Program-made: the position numbers and the translations under genes
In this document: positions 11,456-27,700 of the stretch, piece after piece
How the letters are laid out: each line of letters opens with the position of its first letter
How positions within the stretch are numbered: position 1 is the stretch's first letter
Notes under the pieces: model-generated
What the model saw: only the letters and a program-made list of their open reading frames with translations
The model's database searches: none
What the model was told of the DNA's origin: nothing
Assembly (NCBI GenBank): GCA_003667245.1
Contig: RCNN01000063.1
Location: forward strand, 1 to 64,000
Direction of reading: 5' to 3'
Source: Heterostelium multicystogenum
Lineage: Eukaryota; Evosea; Eumycetozoa; Acytosteliales; Acytosteliaceae
DNA: 64,000 nucleotides

Positions 11456-14400
11456 TTATGTACAAAAAGAATAAATCTTTGATTGTTTGTTCAAAAATTT
11501 TATTTTAACTAAATCTTGTGACAATAGGGGATTCAATAAAAATTGGAGTTTGGCAGAGACGGAGACAAAAGTTGGCATAACTCTAAGCAGTATTGATATT
11601 CTGTTTCTTAGAAGCTTGTAGATGTTTCCAGATTTCTTTGAGAGAATCATGTGAAATGCTGTGTAAACTATCCATTTGAATTCGTCCAACTTCATCGGAA
11701 TATCGTCATTTAATTTTTTTTGTATAAATTTATAAGAATTAAATGTAAAATTATAAAGAATAGCTAAACTTGGTAATTAGTATATAGTACTTATTGAAAC
11801 CAGATTAAATAAAATAATATTACATGTAAATAATTTAGATTGTTCGTGTTCTTGTTGTGGAATGGTAGAAGAAAATTTTTTTACCCAGCAACAAAATGCC
11901 ATTGCTAAAAAACTGGAATGCTCTAAAAAATATTTATCTGAACAGTTGAATATAAATTCAAACTTGGATCGATGAATATTAAATTTCTAAAGATGAAAAT
12001 ATCAATTGAGATGGTTAATAAATGACCAATGGTTCCTTAATAATACAAATATTAATATCTAAAACTTACAACTTTGCTTTGACTTGGAAATGTAAAAATG
12101 TTGTTAATTTTTGTTGTAAAGTTGAGTTGTGGAGAATTGGAAACGATAGTTCATTGATAAGTTCTATTTGAAATGAGATTGTAAATTTAAAATTTAACAT
12201 TTAGAGATAGATTTTAGTTGATACTTACTTTTGCCTGAGAGTTTGGAATAGTCATATAATATTTCAAAGGAATCAACTTTTATAAGTAACCCACACCACG
12301 CCATATATTTACCATCCAGCTCAAGCAAGCCCCTTGAGTTGTCCATTCCATTGTCGTCAATAATATATTGTTTAGTTTTATGATTGTTTGACTTTACTCC
12401 ATATATATTCGGAGTTTCATGGGTAAAGATATCAATGAATGTGCATGTGTTGCTTACACTGTTTGTAAAATAAATGTAATCATCTACGAATCGCATGAGA
12501 TAGTTGAATGCCTTTGGATCGTTGTCTTTAAGCTTTGGAAGAAGAATATTGTTGTCAAGATGTCCTAACTCCAGCTCGCACAATTTCGTTGAGCTCTTAG
12601 CGCCTTGAGCAATACCATTGGTCTGCAGATAGTACTCTTCGCCATACTTCATGATATGTTCACAAATCAACTCATCAAATACCTCCATAAGCTCCTGCTT
12701 GCTGATATTTTTTCTTTCCTTGCCAAATTTAACTTCTTCTGCATACTCAATATTGGGTTGACTAGAATAAAAAGCAAGCTTGCTTTCTAGGTAGGTTTTA
12801 TCATTGGTTGCATAGGCAAGCTTAATGATTCTAAGTCTTTTCGCGACGTTAAGCCTTAGCTTTACTTCGGTAATAGTATACATATTCTAAGGTAGATAGA
12901 TATATTCATGTTAGTGTCGTTGGTTAAGTTAATGATGATCAATATATATATTGCATACATGTATAAATACATCTTCATCCAGGATTTTAACCAACATTTG
13001 TTGCTTCAGAGAATCATAACACTTGTTGATATCAATCGACATGATGTGTATTCTTACGCCAGATTTGACTAATGACAAAAGCTTTGGCTTGATTAGCTTC
13101 AACTTGTGATAAATATCGGTTCTGCTTGTTACAGTTGTTCCACACAGGCTTGGGTTCTTCTCCTTCAAGCATTATATATAGAGTCAATATTGTTATGTTG
13201 AACCGCAAATTAATATGTGAGATACTTACAAGCTCATACTTTAAGATTGGAAAATAATCAATCATCATTGAGTTTCCAGATTGAACAAATGTCTTTTTCA
13301 AGAGAGTTGATCCATTATCAGATATGACCGATGCAGATGTGTTTAGTCTGGCAAGATTAGCAATAGGTCGCAGTGTTTTCTCTTTAGGTATAAACCGAAG
13401 ATAAGAAAAAGCCAGACCTCCTTGTTTGTATATACATTTTTAGTTCCTGTTTGTTTGACAATCATCGGTTCATTGTTTAGTTTAAAAATAATAGTTATTT
13501 CATCTATCATGGATTAGCTTACATTGTTTAACAGTAGCTTGTAGTGTGACTGTCTGAGTGATTTGAGCTGAGTGTATGCCAAGCTGTTCCAGTCACTCAT
13601 GAGATAGTAGTGATGATTGCTTTTGGAGGTGGCTGTATCGGTGCAGTAGAAATGCTTGGTAACTATGGTAGGAATGAGATCATCAAACATCCACCAGAGG
13701 AATGATCTCAGGTATTTCATCTTGGGTATGATAAACTCATTGACCTAAGCATAGGTTGTGTCAATATCATTAACTGGGACCAGTATATAACCAAGATATA
13801 TCTTACATACTTTAAATCTACTAACCAGTTGCTCAAAGTTGATGTGATGATACTTCATAGATTTTAGGTAGTTTAGTAACTCCACTTCCAGCTGTTTCTT
13901 GTTTGTGCTCTCGGGAGTATGATGGTTTTGGCCAACAGAGGGTGTTGCCCATATTCGCGCGGTAGGAAGTAGATTATTGATGACAGTCAATACAAATCTG
14001 TAGACATAGTGTATCTCAATATTCTTTCCTTGGATTAGATGTTCCAAGTTTAGTTGTGAATAGGCAGCTGTACTTGATATGTATTGTGTTGTTCGGAACT
14101 CGTTGTAATCACTATCATCATCGTCACTATCACCATCTCTCGATTGTCTTTTGAGCTTCTTGATATCATTGTGCAGCTTCTCATTCATCAAGTTCTCCAG
14201 TATCATCGAGTAGGGAAGGGACTTTAGCTTGGTAATCAATCGCTCAAACAATGGTCTATGTACCATAAATCTCCCTCTTCATCTTAAGTTCATTGATATT
14301 GGGTGGCCGCTTGAAGTGGTCGGGATGAAAGATACATTCCCCAACAGTGCAATTGAATATTCTATTCATGAGCACTCGAACATCTTTCTTGTTGTTGCAT

Positions 14401-14837
14401 CTCAAATCTTAGCATATGTTAGTTTGATAATTTCTTAGTTCATCAATCATCATCTTGTTTTGATATCTACATTTATTCCTAGATGAACTCGAGTACAAGA
14501 TGTGGTTGGTGTGCAACATTACATCTTTGGTACTGCCACTACTCCAGCATAGAGGTAGAATAGCTTGTGAGCTAGAACGAGGGTAACTACCGAATTCACT
14601 CTTAACACTAATCATTGAAGACGAAGTAACTAAACTTCTACTGTCACACTCTAATAATAACTGACCATTGTTGTTGTTGTTGCTATTTGTACCATGGTTC
14701 TTCTTTCGATGTCTCTTTCTTTTTTTCTTATTTATCTTTTCATTGAAGTTGATATCAACTTTCTTGTTGTCACAACTAGCTTCTAAAATAGGCTCATCGA
14801 AATCAAAGTCGAACTCAAAGTCGTCTATGTCATTCAT
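11456..14837 (-). CDS. tert: Telomerase reverse transcriptase (TERT)
   Basis: Catalytic subunit of telomerase. Nine exons can be threaded: 14837-14471, 14407-13811, 13744-13523, about 13415-13230, 13162-12959, 12886-12229, 12163-12070, 11986-11824 and 11763-11456. The RNA-binding domain has the QFP-type stretch (VYRFVLTVINNLLPTARIW) and the T motif (FLWWMFDDL through HFYCTD, WNSLAYTQL). RT motif 2 is RFIPKEKTLRPIANLARL. Motif A is HIMSIDINKCYDSL (catalytic Asp) and motif B is QTNGIAQGAKSSTKLCEL. Motif C is LMRFVDDYIYF (Asp-Asp) and motif E is WCGLLIKVDSFEI. The thumb includes QQKLTTFLHFQVKAKL, IDPSLNLYSTVQINIF and DEFKWIVYTAFHMIL. An A6 run at 11925-11930 (T6 in the coding sense) breaks the thumb frame by one base. 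The exon border before motif 2 is not resolved. Only about 120 acidic/basic residues precede the RNA-binding motifs, so a TEN domain is not visible. Confidence 0.95.
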
Positions 14838-15118
14838 CTATCTATCTGTATCTATATCTATCGGATATAACTATCTACATATTATATTCTCGGTCGAATG
14901 GAATGCAAATACAAATTTGATTGGTCCACAAATGTGAGTGATACAAAATCATCATAATTTTGATTCGATCCAACAAGTTGCAATCAGTCAAACCTGAAAT
15001 ACTGTCAATGAATCAAGTTAAAGTATATTTAGATACTTTTGAAAATGACCTTTCCAGTTTGTCAAAAATACCATCACTTACTAGACCATAAATCACCAAC
15101 ATAAGAATTGGCCATTAA

Positions 15119-16820
15119 TTAGGATTTATTATTAATAGTTTTGTTGATCCTCTTTGTGCTGTCCAATTTCTTTTCGACATCGCTGATTCTTTGGTTAAGA
15201 TGAATGATTTTCTCATTCAGAGATTGGTCTAGCGTGTCAATTTTGCTGCTGAGAGTGGCATATTGAGTTTTAAGGATTGACTCAACCTTTCCAACCCTTT
15301 CAATGAGTGTTTCTATGATAATGTTGTTGTTATTGTTGATTTGTGTATAACCACTACTGAATGTGGTGGTGGTGGTGTTGGCAGCCTCGGGTGTTAGAGA
15401 TAGCTGCGATTGTGAAATTCTGTTGGGGATGATGGAATGTGTGATTGATTCCGCACTCTATTGTTAAATTCTTCATCTGATAATTCAATATCATTATCTT
15501 GAAAACTATATATACTGTTTACATTTGATTGCTTTGTTGTAGTGGTTGTAGTGGTTGTTGTAGTTGTGGGTTGTGAATCTTCTATATCTTCGGCTTGGGA
15601 CGGTAGAATACTAGGGGATCTCGATTGACCTTTTCTACCCAAGATATTACTCTGATCCTCAATTTTATCTGTGTCCATCTATTTCACAAATATTAATAAA
15701 CATCCAGTAGAATGTTGCCTATTACCTACCTCCATTGACGAACAAGATATATCCTCAGCACTTGAATCAGATTCAAATTCATGATTGTTAAATTGACTAT
15801 AACCTGAAATTGGATCTTCCTCTATTAATGGGTCTACCTTATCATCTGTTTTGTTGTTAACTTTAGTATTGCTAACTGTAGTTGATTTTATAGTCTGTTT
15901 TATATTAGAAACGATGGAGGCTGTTGGACTAACATTAAGATTGCTTGGATTCTTATGTGGTTGGTCCTGGACAATTGTTATTTTCTCTGTTTTGATTTTA
16001 ATAGGTTGTTCCCATTGATTGTTGATAACTAGTAGTAGAAGAGTTATTAGAGGTGTTAAGTTAAGATTACATGAAGAGGTATTTACATTTTATGCTTTTT
16101 AGGTATGCTAGCTGGTCAGAGGGTATCAAACAATCATCCATGTTTAAGTTATCCGGATATGAATGAAACATTTTACTTTTGTTATCATTTCTGATGTTGC
16201 TTGTGTCATTATTGTTGTTGTTGGAATCAGTTTGTTGTTTTAAATAGCTCTTGATGCTTGGCAACGCTGTCAAATGTATTAGTGATTTCATATCAAATCT
16301 CTCTCTTGTTATAAACTCGAAATCCATAAGCTTTGCTAAGAATCGCCCATTTTCGTAAATCAACTCGCAGCTATCGATAGACACAATGGCACCAATGATA
16401 AGATCAACACTAGCCATCGATTTGCTGGTACCTAACCTCCTATGGAATCATTGAATATTTGTTGTTGTTCAATGTTAGTGGACTATATGATACAAAATTA
16501 GCCAAAGGATCACATAATAATATTACTTTAAGAATCTATTCATTGCATATTCATCGATTGAAACCTCTATAAAGGTCTGTCGGTCTGATAGATACAATAC
16601 CTTCTTCAATGAATTTGTAAATCCATCTTTCTTTCAAAGAAATATAAGTATACATCGTTATCAATCAATCAATTAACACACATACATATATCTTTGTAAG
16701 TTCATCAGATATGATTTGACCAATCTTCTTTGGTATGGGATTTATCGATACAACTTGTCTCTCAATCCATGGTATAATTTCGACTTTCTTTTTCTGATGA
16801 TGATGACTCGTATTCTTCAT
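15119..16820 (-). CDS. TPP1/ACD-Est3-like OB-fold protein with C-terminal coiled coil (candidate telomerase recruitment factor)
   Basis: The ATG at 16820 gives MKNTSHHHQKKKVEIIPWIE. Splicing out GTATGTGT...GAAAG (about 16625-16675) and GTAATATT...CATAG (about 16433-16527) yields one open frame without frameshift. Its blocks are IIPWIERQVV, KIGQIISDELTKIY, KKVLYLSDRQTFIEVSIDEY, GAIVSIDSCELIYENGRF and LAKLMDFEFITRE. From memory of the family, this order follows the TPP1 OB fold: a PWI start, a GQLL helix, an L-SD-x-V strand pair, then LLLQDC-x-V and a final FYLQVDRF-like strand. A Ser/Asn-rich linker follows (with an intron or gap around 15680-16065). The C-terminus is a coiled coil (IERVGKVESILKTQYATL, KIDTLDQSLNEKIIHL) ending at 15119, with one slip near 15425. 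TERT starts 282 bp downstream on the same strand. The fold assignment is inference from pattern matching. Confidence 0.62.
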
Positions 16821-17789
16821 GATAGATGCATGTCATGACATGAAACTTATAGATCTGTCGGTGGGTCTGTTACTCAATCAAACACAAGATATTTGATTCC
16901 ATAAAGTTAAATGTCGTTTGATAAAATTCAAAAAAATACAAAACATAAAATAACGAATCATAAATTTCAATATTGGTACTTAGAAAAATATACCTTGTTT
17001 CGTAGATATATGTTAACTTAACATATATCTTTACATATCACCCAACAATAAGTTGATCAACCCTTCCCCAAATAAACAAACCTATTATTATTATTATTCT
17101 TTTCAAGCAGAATTGATTATATTACAATAACTAATTTAGTTTTTATACCATTGAATCAATCACCCAATGGTATATTTCTGCTCAAGTTCAAACCGAAATA
17201 AAGTTATTATATTTTATTTGTGTTTTAAAGTTAAGATTGGAGGGAACTTTTGGGTAAGATCCTTATAATTCCGCAAACGAGCCATGATATTCTTCTCAAT
17301 ACCCGAACTGAAATTTCTAATCAATTTTTATCTATTTCAGTGTTTAGTTTACTAAACAGCCACCCAAACACCAACAACACACCCAAAAAACAAAGTATGG
17401 ATTATAAAGGTTATCAAATCATAAAAGTCGTTGGAATAATCGTGTTGTTGTTTTGTGAATCTTATTGACATGATTGTCTTTTGTTTTTGTTGTAAAAAAA
17501 TATTTTTTAAGATCATAAGATTTTTACAAAAAAACAAAATCTTTTTACACCTTTCTGCCATCCATCTCAAATTTTAAGGTGACACAAGTCAGCGGCAGTG
17601 CCTCGATTTCCCAACTGTTTTTTTTCATCAAAATCCAGAAAGTATAAAAAAATAATAATTTAATAATTTTTGACGAAATTTGTTTGTTGTTTAGCCTCAG
17701 TCTCTAGATTCTGTTTTAAAAGCTCGATAAAATATTGTACTCTGGTCATAATTTCTTTATCCCAGTATACATATTATTATTTATTAAAA
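16821..17789. promoter_or_regulatory. Intergenic between divergent TPP1-like and saposin genes
   Basis: About 970 bp separate the starts of two divergently transcribed genes. The 150 bp before the saposin start are very AT-rich, with long A/T runs and a TATAAAAAAATAATAA-like box near 17643, the usual dictyostelid core promoter style. No gene is supported inside; the short open frame at 17250-17468 lacks coding character. Confidence 0.5.
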
Positions 17790-18857
17790 ATGAACAAAAC
17801 TTTATTTATCACTTTGATGTTGGTTGCCTTGTCCGCTGTCGCCGTCTCATCCAAGAAGGTCGAAGCTAATGGACAAGAATGTGGTTTGTGCACTTTCGTT
17901 GCCACCTACGTCGATAACCTCATCCAATCAAACAAGACCATCACTGAAATCGAACAAGAATTAGATAGCGTCTGCTACTATGTTGCCTCCCCACTCCAAA
18001 AGGCTTGCACCACTTTGATCAACAACTACTTGGAGAATTTCATCGCCAAAGAGACCCCAGCCGTCATCTGCGCCCAAATCGGTTTCTGCTCATCTGAAGA
18101 GAAGAAGAAGGAAATCAAGTCTGATGTCCCATGTGCCATCTGCACCTATATTGTCTCCACCGCTGAGTCCTACCTCGCTTCCAACGCCACCGAATCCGAA
18201 ATTATCAATGTCCTCAACAACGAGTGCAAGCTTTTCGGTAGCTCAATGGCCTCTGTTTGCCAAGGTATTGTCGATACCTATGCCCCACAAATCATCCAAC
18301 AATTGATTAACAAGGAAACCCCATCCCAAATCTGTGGTGACCTCTCCCTTTGCACTTCTGAACAATCCAAGAAGTTCGCCGCTCTCATCCAAGTCGATGA
18401 TGGTTTCGGTTGCCCAGTTTGCAAGTGGATCGTTGGTCAAATCGAAGGTTACGTAACTGCCAACAAGACCCAGGACGAAATCATCAATGCCCTCGAGACT
18501 GACTGCTCCGTCATTGGTTTCAAGTCCTGGGTTCAAATTTGTCAATCCATTGTTGCCCAATACGCCCCAGATTTGATCAACTCTGTCATCAACTCCGAAT
18601 CCCCAACTGTTGCTTGCACCCAAATCGGTTTCTGCGGTAACTCTACCACCACCTCATCATCATCCTCATCATCCACCTCATCCAACCCAACTTCATCCAA
18701 TCCAACCTCATCCAACCCATCTGGTTCAGCCATCTCTGGTACTGGTTCAGGTTCTGGTTCAGGTTCTGGTTCAGCTATCTCTGGTAGTGGTTCATCCTCT
18801 GGTGAATTCTTTGCCAGCCACGGATTCAACCCAAAGTCCAAGGTCAGAGTCCACTAA
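17790..18857 (+). CDS. Secreted protein with three saposin-B domains and Ser/Gly-rich tail
   Basis: I chose the ATG at 17790 because it begins a signal peptide (MNKTLFITLMLVALSAVAVSS). The in-frame upstream codons run through AT-rich leader. Three saposin-B domains follow, each with the six-Cys pattern: CGLCTFVATYVDNLI...CAQIGFC, CAICTYIVSTAESYL...CGDLSLC and CPVCKWIVGQIEGYV...CTQIGFC. N-glycosylation sites (NKT, NAT) recur at the same helix position in each. The tail is Ser/Thr/Pro then Gly-Ser repeats, ending SKVRVH. Saposin-like proteins bind or open membranes and lipids, usually in lysosomes or phagosomes. Single exon, no frameshift. Codon use is strongly C-ending (ATC, GTC, ACC), unlike neighbours, which suggests high expression. 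Confidence 0.94.
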   Translation: MNKTLFITLMLVALSAVAVSSKKVEANGQECGLCTFVATYVDNLIQSNKTITEIEQELDSVCYYVASPLQKACTTLINNYLENFIAKETPAVICAQIGFCSSEEKKKEIKSDVPCAICTYIVSTAESYLASNATESEIINVLNNECKLFGSSMASVCQGIVDTYAPQIIQQLINKETPSQICGDLSLCTSEQSKKFAALIQVDDGFGCPVCKWIVGQIEGYVTANKTQDEIINALETDCSVIGFKSWVQICQSIVAQYAPDLINSVINSESPTVACTQIGFCGNSTTTSSSSSSSTSSNPTSSNPTSSNPSGSAISGTGSGSGSGSGSAISGSGSSSGEFFASHGFNPKSKVRVH

Positions 18858-19018: not shown

Positions 19019-20203
19019 TTAATAATCGGACCAATCGTCATCATCGTCATCATCACCATCATCGTCATCTTCTCTCATGTTTCCTCTTCTTTGGGCCATA
19101 GCAAAGGCAAGAGTGTCTACGAGTGAACGATTACCAGCATCATCAAGCTTGTTGATGTCTGGAAGTTCATTTTGGGTGTGGTCGACCTTCTTGAGATTGG
19201 CACCTCCTCTGATAGCAGAGAGAAGATCGGCACGTCCTCCTCCTCCTCCACCATGATCTCCACTGCTGGGTGGTGGGGGTGGAGGTGCACCTCCTGGAGG
19301 TGGTGGTGGAGGTGGTGCACCGGTAGATGGTTTATTAGCAGGTGGAGGTGGTGGAGGTGGTGGACCACCTGAGGTTGGTTTGTGAGCGGGTGGAGGTGGT
19401 GGAGGTGGGGCAGAACGTCCTCCTGGGGGTGGAGGTGGAGCGGAACGTCCACCGCTTGCAGAGGGTGGAGGAGGTGGAGCGGCACCTCCGGCTTGAGCAA
19501 GAGATTCACCAATAACATTGACGATGAACTGAGCAGTTTCAGCGTTCTTCAACTCCTTCTTAGTGATACCGGCGCTTTGGAAAAGCTTACGCCAATCTGG
19601 TGGAATATTACGAATTTCGAAACCTTGGGTTGGATCCCAACCAATGTGAGACTCGTGACGGAAACCAGATGGTGCAGAGATCTCCATGACAACTTCGTCT
19701 TCGTCGCTGTTACCCAAGAGCTTGTCGAAGAAACCTTTCTTCTTCTTCTTCTCTGGTTTGGAGGCAGTGGATTGAGCAGCAACAAGATTGGTAGAAGACT
19801 TTTGTGAGGCAGTACCAGTGGAAACAAGAGTTGGGCGCATACATTTCTGGAGAGCTTCATTGAGTTCCTCTGCTTCTCTTACATCGGCGAATGAAAGACC
19901 AAAGACAGCACTGTCACCTTCGAAGGTGTAGAAGAATTCACGAGCACGTTGAAACTCGAAACCTTCATACAACTCTTGCTCAAAGACGACACGGGTCGAC
20001 TTCAAGTCGAAGATCTTGATGTAGTTGGTCTTTTCGATACGGTGAGAGATGACAGAGCAGGCACCGACTACACCGGTGTACTCCCAGACACCCTGCTTTA
20101 CCTCGTACAATCTAGCGACAGTTGACGACTTTACATCACAACTGGAGCTATGTACTACACCTAATTGATTCTTTTCTTGTTCAGTTAAAGTCTGAACACC
20201 CAT
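19019..20203 (-). CDS. wasA: Wiskott-Aldrich syndrome protein (WASP)
   Basis: Activates the Arp2/3 complex to nucleate branched actin downstream of Rho/Rac GTPases, at the leading edge and on endocytic vesicles. The protein has 394 residues in one exon without frameshift. WH1/EVH1 covers about residues 10-120 (LYEVKQGVWEYTGVVGAC, KIFDLKSTRVVFEQEL). A basic patch EKKKKKGFF lies near 151. The CRIB motif ISAPSGFRHESHIGWDP is at about 175-191, followed by the GBD helix (WRKLFQSAGITKKEL). A polyproline region occupies about 242-325. One WH2 motif (RADLLSAIRGGANLKKV) lies near 330-346. The C-terminus has a central helix (NRSLVDTLAFAMAQRR) and an Asp-rich acidic tail with the Arp2/3-contacting Trp (DDWSDY). 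There is one WH2 rather than two, and domain order is otherwise standard. Confidence 0.97.
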   Translation of the reverse strand: MGVQTLTEQEKNQLGVVHSSSCDVKSSTVARLYEVKQGVWEYTGVVGACSVISHRIEKTNYIKIFDLKSTRVVFEQELYEGFEFQRAREFFYTFEGDSAVFGLSFADVREAEELNEALQKCMRPTLVSTGTASQKSSTNLVAAQSTASKPEKKKKKGFFDKLLGNSDEDEVVMEISAPSGFRHESHIGWDPTQGFEIRNIPPDWRKLFQSAGITKKELKNAETAQFIVNVIGESLAQAGGAAPPPPPSASGGRSAPPPPPGGRSAPPPPPPPAHKPTSGGPPPPPPPPANKPSTGAPPPPPPPGGAPPPPPPSSGDHGGGGGGRADLLSAIRGGANLKKVDHTQNELPDINKLDDAGNRSLVDTLAFAMAQRRGNMREDDDDGDDDDDDDWSDY

Positions 20204-20618
20204 AATAACTAACTATCTATTACTATTATTAATACTATTATTACAAAGAAATATATAAAATTATCTTTTTTTAAAATTAAAATTAGTTAGATTTGCAAAA
20301 ATTTTTGTTTTTTTTTAAATAAAACAAGTGAAATTCCAAACAATACAATACAATATCCTAAAAAAATTTAATCATTCAAATGTATGGGAATTCAGTGGGT
20401 GAAAAGTTAGGTAACCAACATCAAAATTTTATGATCATTTTTTTTCAGTGGTTGGTTTTGATGCTTGTTTGTGTGTTGTAACTTGATCAAGTTTTTATCA
20501 TAACATTTTTAAAAAGAAATATATCAAATTTATTTAAAAAACTATTATTATTATTTGAAATACCAGCAAGAATTTAGACAACTACTACTATCAAGAAAGT
20601 AGAAGAGGAAAGAGAAAA
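20204..20618. promoter_or_regulatory. Shared intergenic promoter between WASP (-) and Mob (+)
   Basis: The 415 bp between divergent starts are dominated by A/T runs, including T-rich tracts near both genes. No coding or RNA gene was seen. Both genes must use this stretch as promoter. Confidence 0.6.
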
Positions 20619-21560
20619 ATGTTCAACTTCTTTGCAAAAGGTCAAAAGGACAATTCAATCAAACCGGTTTCAAAGCCAAAGAAGAAGAATCCACAAGGAA
20701 CAAGCAGATATACACTAAGAAAGAGTTTGAAAGAAGGTTTTTTGAAGGGAACACTCGTGAGAGACTCTGTCAAGTGTCCACCCGGTGAAGATGAGAATGA
20801 TTGGATTGCAATTCACACCATCGAGATCTACAACACAATGAATTATTGCTATGCATTCGTCCAGGAGTTCTGCAGCGAGGAATCATGTCCAAAGATGAAC
20901 GGAAACAAAGCAACCTATCTCTGGAGTGACGGTACCTCCAAGCCACAAGAGTTACCAGCAAAGAAAGTAAATATCCATCATTATTTCTGAATTTCAATTC
21001 ACGAGAGGACAATAACGACTCGCCAACAATGATTCAGCTATAGCTGGATACCTCTCTATATGATAATCATAGATCTTTATTTGTAGTTCAGCTATCTAAC
21101 CTATTCTTCTTTACAACTAACAATAGTATATTGATAATTTATCTAATTGGATCGGAGATCAAATCGATAATCCAGAGATTTTCCCATTGGAGGACACCTA
21201 TACAAAAGCATTTAGACCAGCTGTAAAGAAGATTTTAAGTAGAATTTTGCGGTAAGTTGGTTATAACTATTTCTAGTTCATTGGTATTCAATCATATATT
21301 AATTCTTTGAATCTTATCATAGTGTATATTCACATATTTATTATCAACATTGGTCAAATATTAAAACTTTGGAAGCAGACAAACACATAAATACATCATT
21401 AAAAGTATGTATACCTTCATATTGTATTTATAGATGCAATCAAATGAGATCATTAGACTAACTAACTATACTACAGCATTTCCACTGTTTCGTTTTGGAG
21501 TTTAATCTTGTTGACGAAACTGATTTGAACTTGATGAAGGATGTATTCGATAAGATTTAA
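20619..21560 (+). CDS. Mob1/phocein-family kinase activator
   Basis: Co-activator of NDR/LATS-type kinases in mitotic-exit and Hippo-like signalling. There are four exons with clean GT-AG borders and no frameshift: 20619-20966, 21127-21251, 21323-21404 and 21477-21560. The start MFNFFAKGQKDNSIK is followed by TSRYTLRKSLKEGFLKGTL. The zinc-binding CSEESCPKM comes next, then TYLWSDGTSKPQELPAKK. Later exons give YIDNLSNWIGDQIDNPEIFP, RIYSRILRVYSHIYYQHW-type sequence, and the His ligands in NTSLKHFHCFVLEFNLV. It ends MKDVFDKI. Length (about 212 residues) and motifs match Mob1 (metazoan MOB1A/B). Dictyostelids have several Mob paralogues and I cannot assign which one this is. Confidence 0.95.
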
Positions 21561-21753: not shown

Positions 21754-24700
21754 TTAAGACCACTTGACTAATCCTTCAACTGTCTCTTGTAGCCATGCGA
21801 ATTCATAGTACTTGGCTATATTACCAAAGATAATTAAACTTGTATATTAGTAATATAAAAAATAAATAGAATAGAGTAATATTTGATAATATGTTAGTTT
21901 ACGTTTATATTTTGAATATGTTGTTTCACATAGTTAACTTACTCTTTTTGTAAGGTTGAGTTTGATTCTCTACATTGATATTGACCAGAACAGGTATGGC
22001 AGATATCACTGAGGTTGTCTTTTTTGATTTGGGCACACTTGGAACACTTCAAATCCTGGAGATGGTAAGAGAGTGATCTACGTTGTACAATTTCGACCAA
22101 TGTACTCTCAATTTGACCTCTGTTGTAGTTGTTACTGCATTGTGCACATACCAACTTGTTGTTGGTGATGTTGTCCCGCAGTAAATCAATGTCACGGCAT
22201 GAGTAGCAGTAGGAGCAAATTACATCTGACATGACAAAGGAAAGACATGGATCTTTGAAGGTTGCTTCATCTGAGAATTCACGGATATTGATAATACGCA
22301 TCAAGTTCTTACGTAGACGTTGTACATTGCTCTGGAGTGAGTGATCCAGCATCAAAACATGACATACCGACTTGACAAACTCGAGGGCAGGATTGGTCAG
22401 GTGTAAATGGCTACCAGGAAGTATTGGGAATTCATCTGTATTCTCAGAGTACTTGAGTCCTTGAAGAATTTGGACAATTCTGTTATTGTCCACAACATCA
22501 TTGAATTTATAGGGTAGCAGCTTGTCATCTTCGTCTTGGTCCTCTTCATTCCAATTGGTATTGGTATTTTTTAACATATTAATATCCTTTTGTTTATCGA
22601 TATCATTACTGTCATTATTATTATTATTATTATTGTTGCCATTGTCGCCATTGTTATTATTTGAATTATCTGTAGTACTGGTGGTTGGTTTTAGGATGTT
22701 TTGGATTCTTTGTTTCTCATTGTGAATGTAGAGTTTATGGATAAAGTCAGAGATGACGAGAAGGAAAGAGTTTTGGATGGAGGGTGGGAGGAATTCAGAT
22801 AGATTCCACTGTGAAATTAGGTTGGTCGATTGGATGCTGGTTGTGTCTGGTGATACTTGGTTGGTTTGGTTGTTTGGCTGGTGAGAAACGCCAGCATAGT
22901 TGGAAACATCCATCCACAATAAATTATTCCAAAACTTGGTTGGCTTGATTGTAATCCAAGAGAATAGTTCTTTCTTCTTTATGACACCGATGATGTAGCT
23001 GCAGTACTGCTTGGCATCTTCTATCGATGTCTTCTGAGAGCACAATATGATACGGTTAAAGTTTCCATATACAATTTTGCAACCTAGCTTTCTGAACTCG
23101 AAAATCAACTGTAGGAATACTTTTTTCATTAGTCCATGTAATGTACGGTGGAGGATAGGGTCGTACATTCCACTGTAAGGAGAGCTGATCCAACGGTAAA
23201 AGTGGGTCAGAAGAAGATCGGGAGTTGGATTGTTACGGCGATTACCCATGACCAAATCAAGTGACCACCGGGTAACCATCTTTTTAAGGATATTGAACTC
23301 TTTGTCGCAGCTGTTGAATTGCTCCATGGCTGCGGATGATTTAACTTGTTTCTCGTAGTTTGGCTGCTTATCTGCACCATCCAAATTAAGTGTCTCGCTG
23401 TCTCCATTATTGAGTTGACCTCCAATGATACCTTCAATGTCGGCGAGATGCGATGACTCTAAAATGGTGTTCACAGCTAGACCACCAATGCTAAGCTCAA
23501 AGCAAGCACTGTTATAGCAGTTTGGCTGGTTTATTTCTGTTTTGGAAAGTTCCTCGTGGAATTTGGCATCATCTTCTTCTGATCCACCAAGATCAGGACA
23601 GTTGGTGAGTGACATCCAAAGCAGATGGTTAGATTCCTTCAAAATTCTAGAATAGCATACGTCGGAAACAAATGATGCATAGTCACCCTTAAGATTACCG
23701 ATTGGAATGTTCGAGTAACGTGCTAGTCCAGTGAAGTATTTGATATAGTTGTCAACCTCACTGATACGTGTCAAGAGTGGCTTGAGAGCATGGACTTCCC
23801 AATTGAAAGGCGAGTATTGAGAGTCATATTCATGTGAAATCATCTGTACTTTGGCGAACTCACGTAGCAGTGGGATATCGTGGTACATCTCTGGAAGATT
23901 GACAACTTGAGTCACGAGTATAGTGGCACCCTTGCGCTCAGATTGGTACTCTTCAAGGATCTTGTTGACAGACCTTCTACCATTCTCCATTGAAGTGTCA
24001 ATCTTAAAGTTAAAGTTAATCAATGGATACTTTTCACTTAAAGAATTGAGTAGTTTCTTGCTGATCGAATGTGATTGATAGGGATTGATAAAGATGATTG
24101 TTCCCTGTTTGTTGTGGAAGTTGATAATTGCAAAAATACCGTCTTTTCCATCTTTACTGTTGTGGTAAAGATAGATCTGATGGAAATTGGGCTTCTGCCA
24201 TGTATCCAGATGATCTGTCGGCACCTCTTGACTGGATCTGGTCGAGAAGATATCTACCATTGGCGTTTGGCTTTGCATTACGCTTCAAGCTAGCCATACA
24301 TCCCACTTGAATAATTGCAGAGATATCGAGTGGTGTCTGTGTCTCGTATACTCCTTCAATTTGTGGTAGTGTAAAGAGAGTGGATAGCTCCTTGGAATTC
24401 TTAATGAATTCGTCCTCTGACATTGTGTGTTGTGTCAGATGCAAGCGTGGTTTAGATCTTGGAGGGATAGCATGCGAAGGAACTGGATTGGCTCCATCAT
24501 ATGGATCGCTCTGGAAACTATTCAAATAGAATTGGCGTTGTAGTTCCACTTTGATAGGAATCAGTTGGTCACCAATCAATGACCAGAATGTATAGAATCC
24601 AGGGTGGTTTGTTGGATCAATAGATATAATATGCCAAACTCCTTTACGAACAGCTTCGTTTTGTGAAGTGAAGAATCCATTGAACATCTTACCATTGCTT

Positions 24701-27700
24701 GTTTGTGCTGTACTGTTTTTGAGTTCATCAAAATCTACATCCTTGCCAGTGCGCTTTGCCTTGAGATTAGCACGTAGTTTGCGCCATTGTACTTTTTTAT
24801 ATTTTAACCAACCATCAAGATCCTCTTCGTATTTGGGACAGTCACCAATAAGTTGTTCTTCCTGTCTTTTCTTCTTAATAGCAGCAGGATCATTTGCAGA
24901 TGCAGCACCAGTTCTCTTGTGCTTTGTGAACATGGGTGGCTTGCTGGCTACATTCTGGAATTTATCTTTAAACATATCTTCGATGTCCTCCATATGCTGT
25001 GACTTCTCGACTTTGTTAAAGAAGCTGGTAATATGTGTCTGTTGCTTTGAGTCATTCTGACGTCTCATCTCCTTGATAATCCAATCAGGATGAGGTACAC
25101 GAGGCACTGGATTTTCAATATTCTGAAGTGCAGCAGGAAGTGTAATCATCTTCTGAATGACTCCAGATAAACGCTGTCTGTAGTAATCCCAATCGATAAT
25201 ATCACGCAACTCTACATCTTTACCTTTGGTCCACTTTCTCAAAAACATTACTCTGACGTCATAGTCGGCAGAAAAGATTTCGGTTGGAATAGTACGCTCT
25301 GTTACTGGTGCACCGACTGGCTTGTTTGAAATGATGTATTGGCACTGAAGACCGGCATCTTTAACAATATCCGGTCCAAGGAATTCTTTCAACTTGAACG
25401 CAGTTCCAATTGCAGTGCTCTTCTGACGATCGTATTCATCTAACTTTTTACTCATCTTTGATGATTCAGTAATCAAACGAATCAACTCCTTCTCTTCATA
25501 TCCATCGGCATGAGAATCCAGGACATCCATCCAGTGATTGGCAACGGAGGCGATGGCCTGGTAGCAACCTTCAAGGGTTGTGCCATCCATGAATCGCTGG
25601 AATAGTTCTGTTTGGAATGTTTTGATCAACTCCAACTCTCCACGACGCTTAATTTCGAAACCTTTCAACTCCTGTACACCTCCCTGCTTGTTGAAAACGG
25701 CGTAACGTTTCTTGAGCTTAACGTCTTTTTCTTTACCGGTAGGAATAAACATACATCCATAGGGACCATCGGACTCAAACATAATAGAGCACTCACTACG
25801 TGTGATATATTCTCCATTTGGCCCAAGCTCTTGGTACTGATGATTGGTGTAGAGCTCAGCTACACGTGCATTCAGTAGAGCATTGAGGAAGTTGAACTTC
25901 TTACTCTTTCCATTCTTTAGCTTAAGAGAATAGTCCTCTGGGAAGTTTTCGGGCAATACACACCAGATACCATCTGTATCAAGCTCGAGTGGACGACCAA
26001 GCTGCTCGACAGCGATTCGTGCATTCTTGATAATGTTACTTCCAGTGTGTGTTACGATACCTGCCATCTGCATTGAATACCAACGAGATCCCTTTCTCAT
26101 GACATAACCATAGAAAGAATTGAGAATACACTTGTGTGCCAACTGCATAGATTCATACATAATGACCATGTTTTGGCACTTACCGAGATCATGTGCACCA
26201 CTACCCTTCTGGGCAGAATCTAAATGTCCCTTCCACTGACCATGTAAATCCTTGTAAACATATCTTCTATCACGGAAAAGCTTTACGGTATCGACATAGA
26301 ATGAGTTTTCTCTCATACATACTGTATCCGATTTAATTTCATTCGATACAATATGGGTTTTCTTATATACTTTCCTTTAGTTCCAGAGTTAGTAATGCCA
26401 TTTAATTTGAATCAAACGCCTGTACATACTTTGAATATTCTTTTAATCTCTTTCTTAACATGGCATTCTGCTCGTCCTCTGTGTGTTCTAAAAATGGCTT
26501 CTCCTCTGGTCCAAATCCTAGAATATAATGTATTAGTTATGTTTCTCAGCTTACAATTAACAGTTCTAATACTAACTCTCGGATTCTAGCTGTTGTAAGA
26601 TTAAACGATATTCTGAATAGTTGGACGGAGAATAGTCACCTCTCCATTCCCAATTCAATGTACGCTGGCAGTTATTCTCTGGCTTGTTAAATACACAGGT
26701 TGCACAAAACTCGTCTGTGACAATTGATGTGGGCTGTAGTCTATTGGTCAAAATAATGTTTGGATACATAGCACTAACGTCCAAATGGTAAATAAGCGGC
26801 TTGCTTTCTTGCTTTGGATTGTCACGCAATCCTGACAGACGTGCTACAATATCATCTTTAATCTGTTGGAAGTTGGTGAGTTCTTCTTCATTTACTCCAG
26901 TTTCTTTCATCGCCTGGTGTATAATGGTGTCAACTGATTCTATGTGTGTCTTGATTGCTTCAGCGTCAAGAGAGAAGTGAGTTGGAATGTCAGAACGGAA
27001 AATTCCAGACTCGAGACACTCGACGTGACCACCGACATATGTCTCTGACTCGACTAAATGACCCTTGTAAATCTTACGCTGGTCGTCTATGTGCTTGTTT
27101 GGGAAGATTACGTTGGCACGGAATGCCTGTGTCATGAGGAGTGCCTCACAAAGTGAACCAGAACCCTTACGCAAAACATCATCCGGATTCAAAGGAATGA
27201 TATTACAGAGCGAAAAGATGAATGGATGAATATAAGACATGTATAGATAGTATGTGGCGACTGCATCGGAAACTGAATAGTTTGCAAGCCGCTCGGGATC
27301 TTCACGGGCAGACCGGACCATTTCTTCGGGGTCCAACTCGAGTGGATTGTAACGCAGCTTCTTTCTGACTACTTCCTTAAGACGATGGCTTCCGTGTGGA
27401 AGATAAGAGTCACGCTTCACCCAGCAGAAAGCATCCATATGAACGGCAAACTGTCCACGATAGTCTTCGTCAACTGTTTTTCTGAATCCAATCTCCTGGT
27501 ACAAGTCCATTCCATGGTGCTTGGTACGTGCGTCGACAAAAGGCCAATCGAAACCATCACCGTGATAGGTGACAAAGATGTGAGGACGCAATTCACGGAT
27601 ATGGGAGAAGAACTTTTGCAAAACCGATCGCTCATCAGGCTCATTGAAGACGGTGAAAGGACCTTCGTATTCTGGTTTGGGGGTGTACTCAAAGTCGTCA

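Follow-up and report, generated by a model that had tools for sequence, protein, structure and literature searches.

A candidate TPP1/Est3-type OB-fold gene in tandem with TERT in Heterostelium multicystogenum

The window analysed here, i.e. the whole stretch of 64,000 nucleotides from contig RCNN01000063.1, carries on its minus strand a gene with a predicted OB-like N-terminal domain, referred to below as the OB-like gene, and directly downstream of it a gene for TERT. The OB-like gene starts with an ATG at 16820, is interrupted by short canonical introns and lies in tandem with TERT, 281 bp upstream of the TERT ATG (14837). An initial annotation had put this distance at 282 bp; its tandem placement beside a genuine TERT agrees with our analysis, and the distance is corrected here by one base. 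Table 1 gives the coordinates of the features.

Table 1. Features of the OB-like gene, its TERT neighbour and other genes in the window.
Feature	Position	Strand	Content	Basis or remark
Exon 1, OB-like gene	16686..16820	-	ATG, VEIIPWIERQVV, GQII; presumed helix and strand 1	open frame with GT donor
Exon 2, OB-like gene	16527..16630	-	KKVLYLSDRQTFIEVSIDEYAMNRFLK; presumed strands 2-3 and helix	frame maintained across canonical AG/GT borders
Exon 3, OB-like gene	16087..16439	-	remainder of the OB-like domain with VDLIIGAIVSIDSCELIYE, RFLAKLMDFEFIT and a presumed C-terminal helix; N-rich linker begins	frame kept
Exon 4, OB-like gene	15730..16028	-	low-complexity linker, acidic stretch	frame and splice borders
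Exon 5, OB-like gene	15396..15678	-	low-complexity linker; in-frame stop near 15395	translation
Coiled-coil frame	15119..15457	-	probable C-terminus of the OB-like gene	open frame
Spacer, OB-like gene to TERT	14838..15118	-	281 bp	no open stretch above 45 codons on the gene strand
TERT	11456..14837	-	low-complexity N-terminus, RNA-binding domain, RT motifs	frame broken at several places
Saposin-B multi-domain protein	17667..18857	+		
WASP/N-WASP homolog	19019..20212	-		
Mob1/phocein piece	20559..20990	+		
DNA polymerase epsilon catalytic subunit	21939..26376	-		24154-26376 E 5e-195 to PDB; frame break near 24154-24284

The four accepted introns of the OB-like gene are of the GT...AG type, measure 51-87 bp and have a GC content of 26-31% as opposed to 31-36% in the exons. 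Joining exons 1-3 at their GT-AG borders yields a single open frame, and PWI, GQII, LYLSD, VSIDEY, IVSIDSCELIYE and AKLMDFEFIT all fall within its first ~130 residues. The initial annotation had described just such an N-terminus, spliced in one frame through two introns with the motifs in this order, and the spliced frame bears this out; canonical introns are found close to the proposed sites (near 16625-16675 and 16433-16527), with exact borders at 16685-16631 and 16526-16440. One part further on is less clean, as exon 5 reaches its stop before the coiled coil that had been named as the C-terminus. An open frame for this coiled coil exists, but joining it to exon 5 requires either a base error or a weak intron at 15456-15404 (GTGCGG...CGCAG), and its matches to several families, some of them coiled-coil, are below cut-off (best DUF1664, E 2.5e-4). 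The coiled coil, situated beyond a frame break, is not a secure part of the gene, although it probably forms its C-terminus. Base errors in the assembly of the window are likely, since frame breaks are also present in TERT and in the DNA polymerase epsilon gene. A search of the genome (29.7 Mb, 528 contigs) found the OB-like gene as a single locus, at this place only. The 45-codon stretch in the spacer contains ICICIPFDRE, which on comparison with the human sequence slightly resembles a stretch of the human TEN domain, a likeness that was judged to be chance.

Judged by its sequence, the downstream gene is a genuine TERT. Its RNA-binding domain matches PF12009 above the cut-off with 60.2 bits (59.2 bits on a joined piece), a database search matched plant TERT (E 1.4e-20), and the RT motifs can be seen by eye, together with an RVT_1 match (E 8.4e-5) that stays below the cut-off of that family. 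No second TERT locus was found in the genome. The first ATG is preceded by an in-frame stop, and frame breaks without good introns occur near 14255, 13450 and 13050. The first 110 residues are of low complexity and have no fitting Pfam match, and a comparison of these residues with the TEN region of Lotus TERT revealed no likeness, 1873 of 2000 shuffles scoring as high. The Pfam RNA-binding match begins only near residue 258 of the joined TERT model. Residues 112-257 were assigned by eye to the part following TEN, since HILYS stands at position 112 here and at 388 in Lotus TERT, and the alignment of this region is non-significant, as at least the same score was obtained with 666/2000 shuffles against Lotus 201-600 and with 1471/2000 against Lotus 1-200. 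Thus, the TERT model showed no recognisable TEN domain in what is a weak test, and a very divergent TEN domain or an upstream exon may exist. Two telomerase RNA template strings that were searched for are absent from the window.

The first ~130 residues of the OB-like protein combine PWI, GQII and LSD with two hydrophobic strands, in the same order and at nearly the same spacing as in human TPP1 and yeast Est3, members of a family that recruits or modulates telomerase at the chromosome ends of animals and yeast; the overall resemblance is weak. The sequences of human TPP1 and S. cerevisiae Est3 (ScEst3) used for this comparison were checked against PDB chains. The intervals between five landmarks, the last two of which were chosen by eye, are 17/25/34/20 in the window domain, 18/31/35/21 in human TPP1 and 19/45/35/20 in ScEst3, so that the spacing differs much only between GQ and SD. 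In the alignment, the PWI, G and D columns are common to all three proteins, with the PWI and G of exon 1 falling on their counterparts in TPP1 and Est3. The layout of PF10341 (TPP1) is likewise present at family spacing, with PWI before strand 1, a G near strand 1 and an S/R-D turn between strands 2 and 3, although these patterns were set post hoc. With patterns also written after sight of the sequence, the ordered PWI-GQ-SD signature appeared in none of 200000 shuffles and its PWI-GQ part in 1/200000, while both last strands were also placed in 444/200000 shuffles of the remainder.

PF10341 is the sole Pfam family that matches the spliced 152-aa domain (13.5 bits, E 0.063). The match spans residues 10-129 of the protein on positions 18-125 of the 158 in the profile, and its score amounts to half of the curated cut-off of 26.5 bits, so that the threshold is not reached. 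It was seen again with a 148-aa piece and was lost with a 118-aa piece, with exon 3 alone, which has no Pfam match, and with the whole 371-aa protein. None of 20 other pieces scanned matched PF10341, two of these being later frames of the OB-like gene. However, an E-value of 0.063 alone is no proof of membership, because matches to unrelated families with E 0.009 to 0.07 occur in the TERT exons, in an antisense frame and in the linker of the OB-like gene.

In addition, our own TPP1/Est3 profiles were used, which were built from the family members in the protein database described below and are narrow, with mammals and budding yeasts only. With the combined mammal and yeast HMM, the window protein obtained 1.8 bits and rank 170 of the 4623 scored sequences (5396 given); with the TPP1-only HMM it obtained -0.1 bits, a score reached or exceeded by 93 of 1283 scored shuffles (2000 made), and with the Est3-only HMM 1.7 bits, reached or exceeded by 141 of 1851 (2000 made). 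These tests have little power even for true relatives, since with the TPP1 HMM ScEst3 obtains only 4.2 bits, and the Est3 HMM gives human TPP1 a score of -0.4 bits. Among six hhalign settings, the mixed TPP1+Est3 profile in global mode gave a window score that none of 50 shuffles reached, and the other five were unremarkable, with shuffles scoring at least as high in 32/50 (tp, local), 8/50 (tp, global), 5/50 (es, local), 6/50 (es, global) and 12/50 (tpes, local) cases. A further profile comparison aligned PWI, GQ and SD in register at a probability of 0.7% and E 0.076, which is not significant. Pairwise local alignment with six family members was notable for ZpEst3 (13/2000 shuffles at least as high) and weak for human TPP1 (125/2000), NdEst3 (443/2000), ScEst3 (1393/2000) and two other mammals (314/2000 and 529/2000). 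As a control, human and donkey TPP1 were aligned with Est3, where two of four pairs were notable (8/2000 and 4/2000) and two were not (492/2000 and 549/2000).

With the window domain as query, 126 candidates were scored in a protein database and none reached E 1. Sequence search of the PDB yielded no convincing chain, the best hits being unrelated proteins (E 0.17), and exon 3 found no homolog in bacterial/archaeal and viral collections. The same protein database does contain TPP1 and Est3 of animals and yeasts, with 38 proteins at E <= 1, of which 35 carry PF10341 and the remaining three, on visual inspection, resemble fragments of TPP1 from mammals. That no dictyostelid homolog was found in it is uninformative, since a TERT query retrieved only two plant TERTs among 7994 scored candidates. 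A PF10341 profile search of the whole genome gave no candidate, which says little because the exons are short and lie in different frames; the corresponding PF12009 search did detect the TERT locus. Among the papers listed by searches of an open-access library, none deals with a TPP1/Est3 protein of dictyostelids.

Taken as a whole, the sequence evidence makes an assignment to the TPP1/Est3 family plausible, and we favour, with moderate confidence, the reading that the OB-like gene encodes a divergent TPP1/Est3-type OB protein that acts on telomerase via a surface other than that used in humans. The TPP1/Est3 identity put forward initially is therefore retained in part: PF10341 is the only Pfam match and the order and spacing of the motifs agree, but the score is below cut-off and nearly all other comparisons are non-significant. 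The strongest competing explanation, which we consider rather unlikely, is a fast-evolving lineage-specific protein unrelated to TPP1, whose motifs and weak Pfam score are due to chance and were noticed because of the adjoining TERT. It would account for a sub-threshold score at the level of the spurious matches, for the non-significant results of the narrow profiles and of five of the six pairwise tests, and for the fact that no relative was found. However, the ordered landmarks and their spacings agree with those of two distant family members, the only Pfam family with a match had been predicted in advance, and known relatives perform barely better in the same narrow tests, both in the control pairs and across the HMMs.

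It is less probable still, and in our opinion improbable, that the gene belongs to a different OB-fold family, such as CST, RPA or RMI, and lies beside TERT by chance. The strand order deduced from the sequence is compatible with OB folds in general, but no other OB family was matched in Pfam up to E 10 or in NCBIfam (bacteria and archaea; 118-aa piece only); RMI1 and RPA, which the initial annotation had named as alternatives, did not emerge. The PWI element before strand 1 is not known as a feature of the CST, RPA and RMI families. A telomerase split over two genes, with the OB-like gene carrying the TEN domain unrecognised in the adjoining TERT model, would suit its position directly upstream but is very improbable, as neither pairwise comparison with human and Lotus TEN (689/2000 and 940/2000 shuffles at least as high; a weak test) nor a TEN profile, weak with its two members (18/50 local, 31/50 global), gave any indication of it.

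The slime-mould repeat family PF00526, which is typical of dictyostelids, has 150 scored matches in the genome. Four units of TAAGGG (24 bases) occur as 90 overlapping matches on 15 contigs. Eight of these contigs have them in the first 115 bases; in the remaining seven they are reversed and at high positions, which would fit right-hand ends. Four units of TTAGGG are absent from the genome. The TAAGGG arrays make telomerase-type telomeres likely, and contigs such as C47, C354, C376 and C495, with arrays in the first ~115 bases, may represent assembled telomere ends. A 2019 study of D. discoideum telomeres cites TAAGGG as the repeat of P. pallidum and TTAGGG as that of D. fasciculatum, and reports a failure to find homologs of mammalian shelterin proteins (PMC6759168). 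In the present genome POT1, the usual partner of TPP1, was not found, which counts against a TPP1/Est3 protein, although all these searches are insensitive. They returned no match with the PF02765 and PF16686 profiles at the first thresholds and nothing with human POT1 as query. When the limit was set to E 10, a PF02765 piece appeared on contig C123 (E 0.03), which was rejected as POT1 because an RPA OB family fits better (PF16900, E 5.2e-8, versus E 0.0015 for POT1). This locus (L019, 901-1866) appears to encode an RPA-type OB protein with a CxxC...CxxC element and a weak POT1 match.

Under the favoured reading of a divergent TPP1/Est3-type protein, the gene product would begin with a PWI helix and an OB barrel, continue with a disordered linker and probably end in a coiled coil. 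An AlphaFold2 model computed for a piece lacking exon 1 (exon 2 with intron 2 and the adjoining part of exon 3) had a pLDDT of 36 and is uninformative on the fold. The protein would most likely be an accessory protein of telomerase or of telomere ends, whose OB domain may dock on TERT or on a TERT partner and thereby raise the dwell time or processivity of TERT at TAAGGG ends, while the linker or the coiled coil may bind a second telomere protein. The gene frame, its motifs, its position beside a genuine TERT and the TAAGGG arrays are direct observations, whereas the OB fold, the family membership and each functional step are inferred. The initial annotation had proposed telomerase recruitment; the sequences lend no support to a recruitment of the human type. 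At the position of the acidic loop of the TEL patch, the window domain has FLKRLGTSKS. Human E215 has no counterpart that could be placed, since the alignment has a gap at or close to this position; in human TPP1, this TEL-patch residue contacts K78 of the TERT TEN domain (PMC4359370). The charge of the TEL patch is not fixed in the TPP1/Est3 family, since the TEL region of H. polymorpha Est3 (HpEst3) is positively charged (PMC7338525). Because the acidic loop is missing and, in the weak test above, TEN was unrecognised in the TERT model, docking would probably take place elsewhere on TERT. The obvious alternative surface would be the IFD-TRAP region. Either the function of the OB-like protein differs from that of TPP1, or patch and partner have diverged or been lost together and the contact lies elsewhere on TERT. 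The most far-reaching version, according to which dictyostelids keep a TPP1/Est3-type protein in tandem with a TEN-less TERT, patch and partner having been lost together in favour of a TEN-independent telomerase contact, is unlikely.

Animals and fungi belong to the lineage that is sister to Amoebozoa. If the OB-like gene is indeed a TPP1/Est3 relative, this telomerase partner would predate the split from that lineage, and a genetic handle on telomerase control would become available in a tractable model. If, moreover, TERT truly is without TEN, the pair would allow a test of which part of the TPP1-telomerase contact is ancient, and a TEN-independent route would mean that the ancestral role of TPP1/Est3 is separable from the TEN-docking role in animals and yeast.

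Among known systems, the POT1-like DDB_G0286375, MybAA and MybL of D. discoideum are comparable in being proposed telomere proteins of a dictyostelid, but none of them is proposed as TPP1-like in PMC6759168, where the word TPP1 is absent. The OB domain of human TPP1/ACD (PF10341; PDB 2i46, 7tre) shares PWI, GQ, SD and the strand order with the window domain and represents its only Pfam match, and three of the four landmark intervals are within 1 residue. In contrast to TPP1, the window protein has FLKRLGTSKS in place of the acidic TEL-patch loop and no POT1- or TIN2-binding motifs recognised by eye, and its gene has a probable coiled-coil C-terminus and the tandem arrangement with TERT. Est3 (S. 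cerevisiae, PDB 2m9v and 9swn; H. polymorpha, 6Q44) resembles the window protein in the PWI, G, D and IIG positions, and HpEst3 also in its positively charged TEL region (PMC7338525). However, ScEst3 comprises 181 aa, whereas the window protein has a long low-complexity linker and probably a coiled coil.
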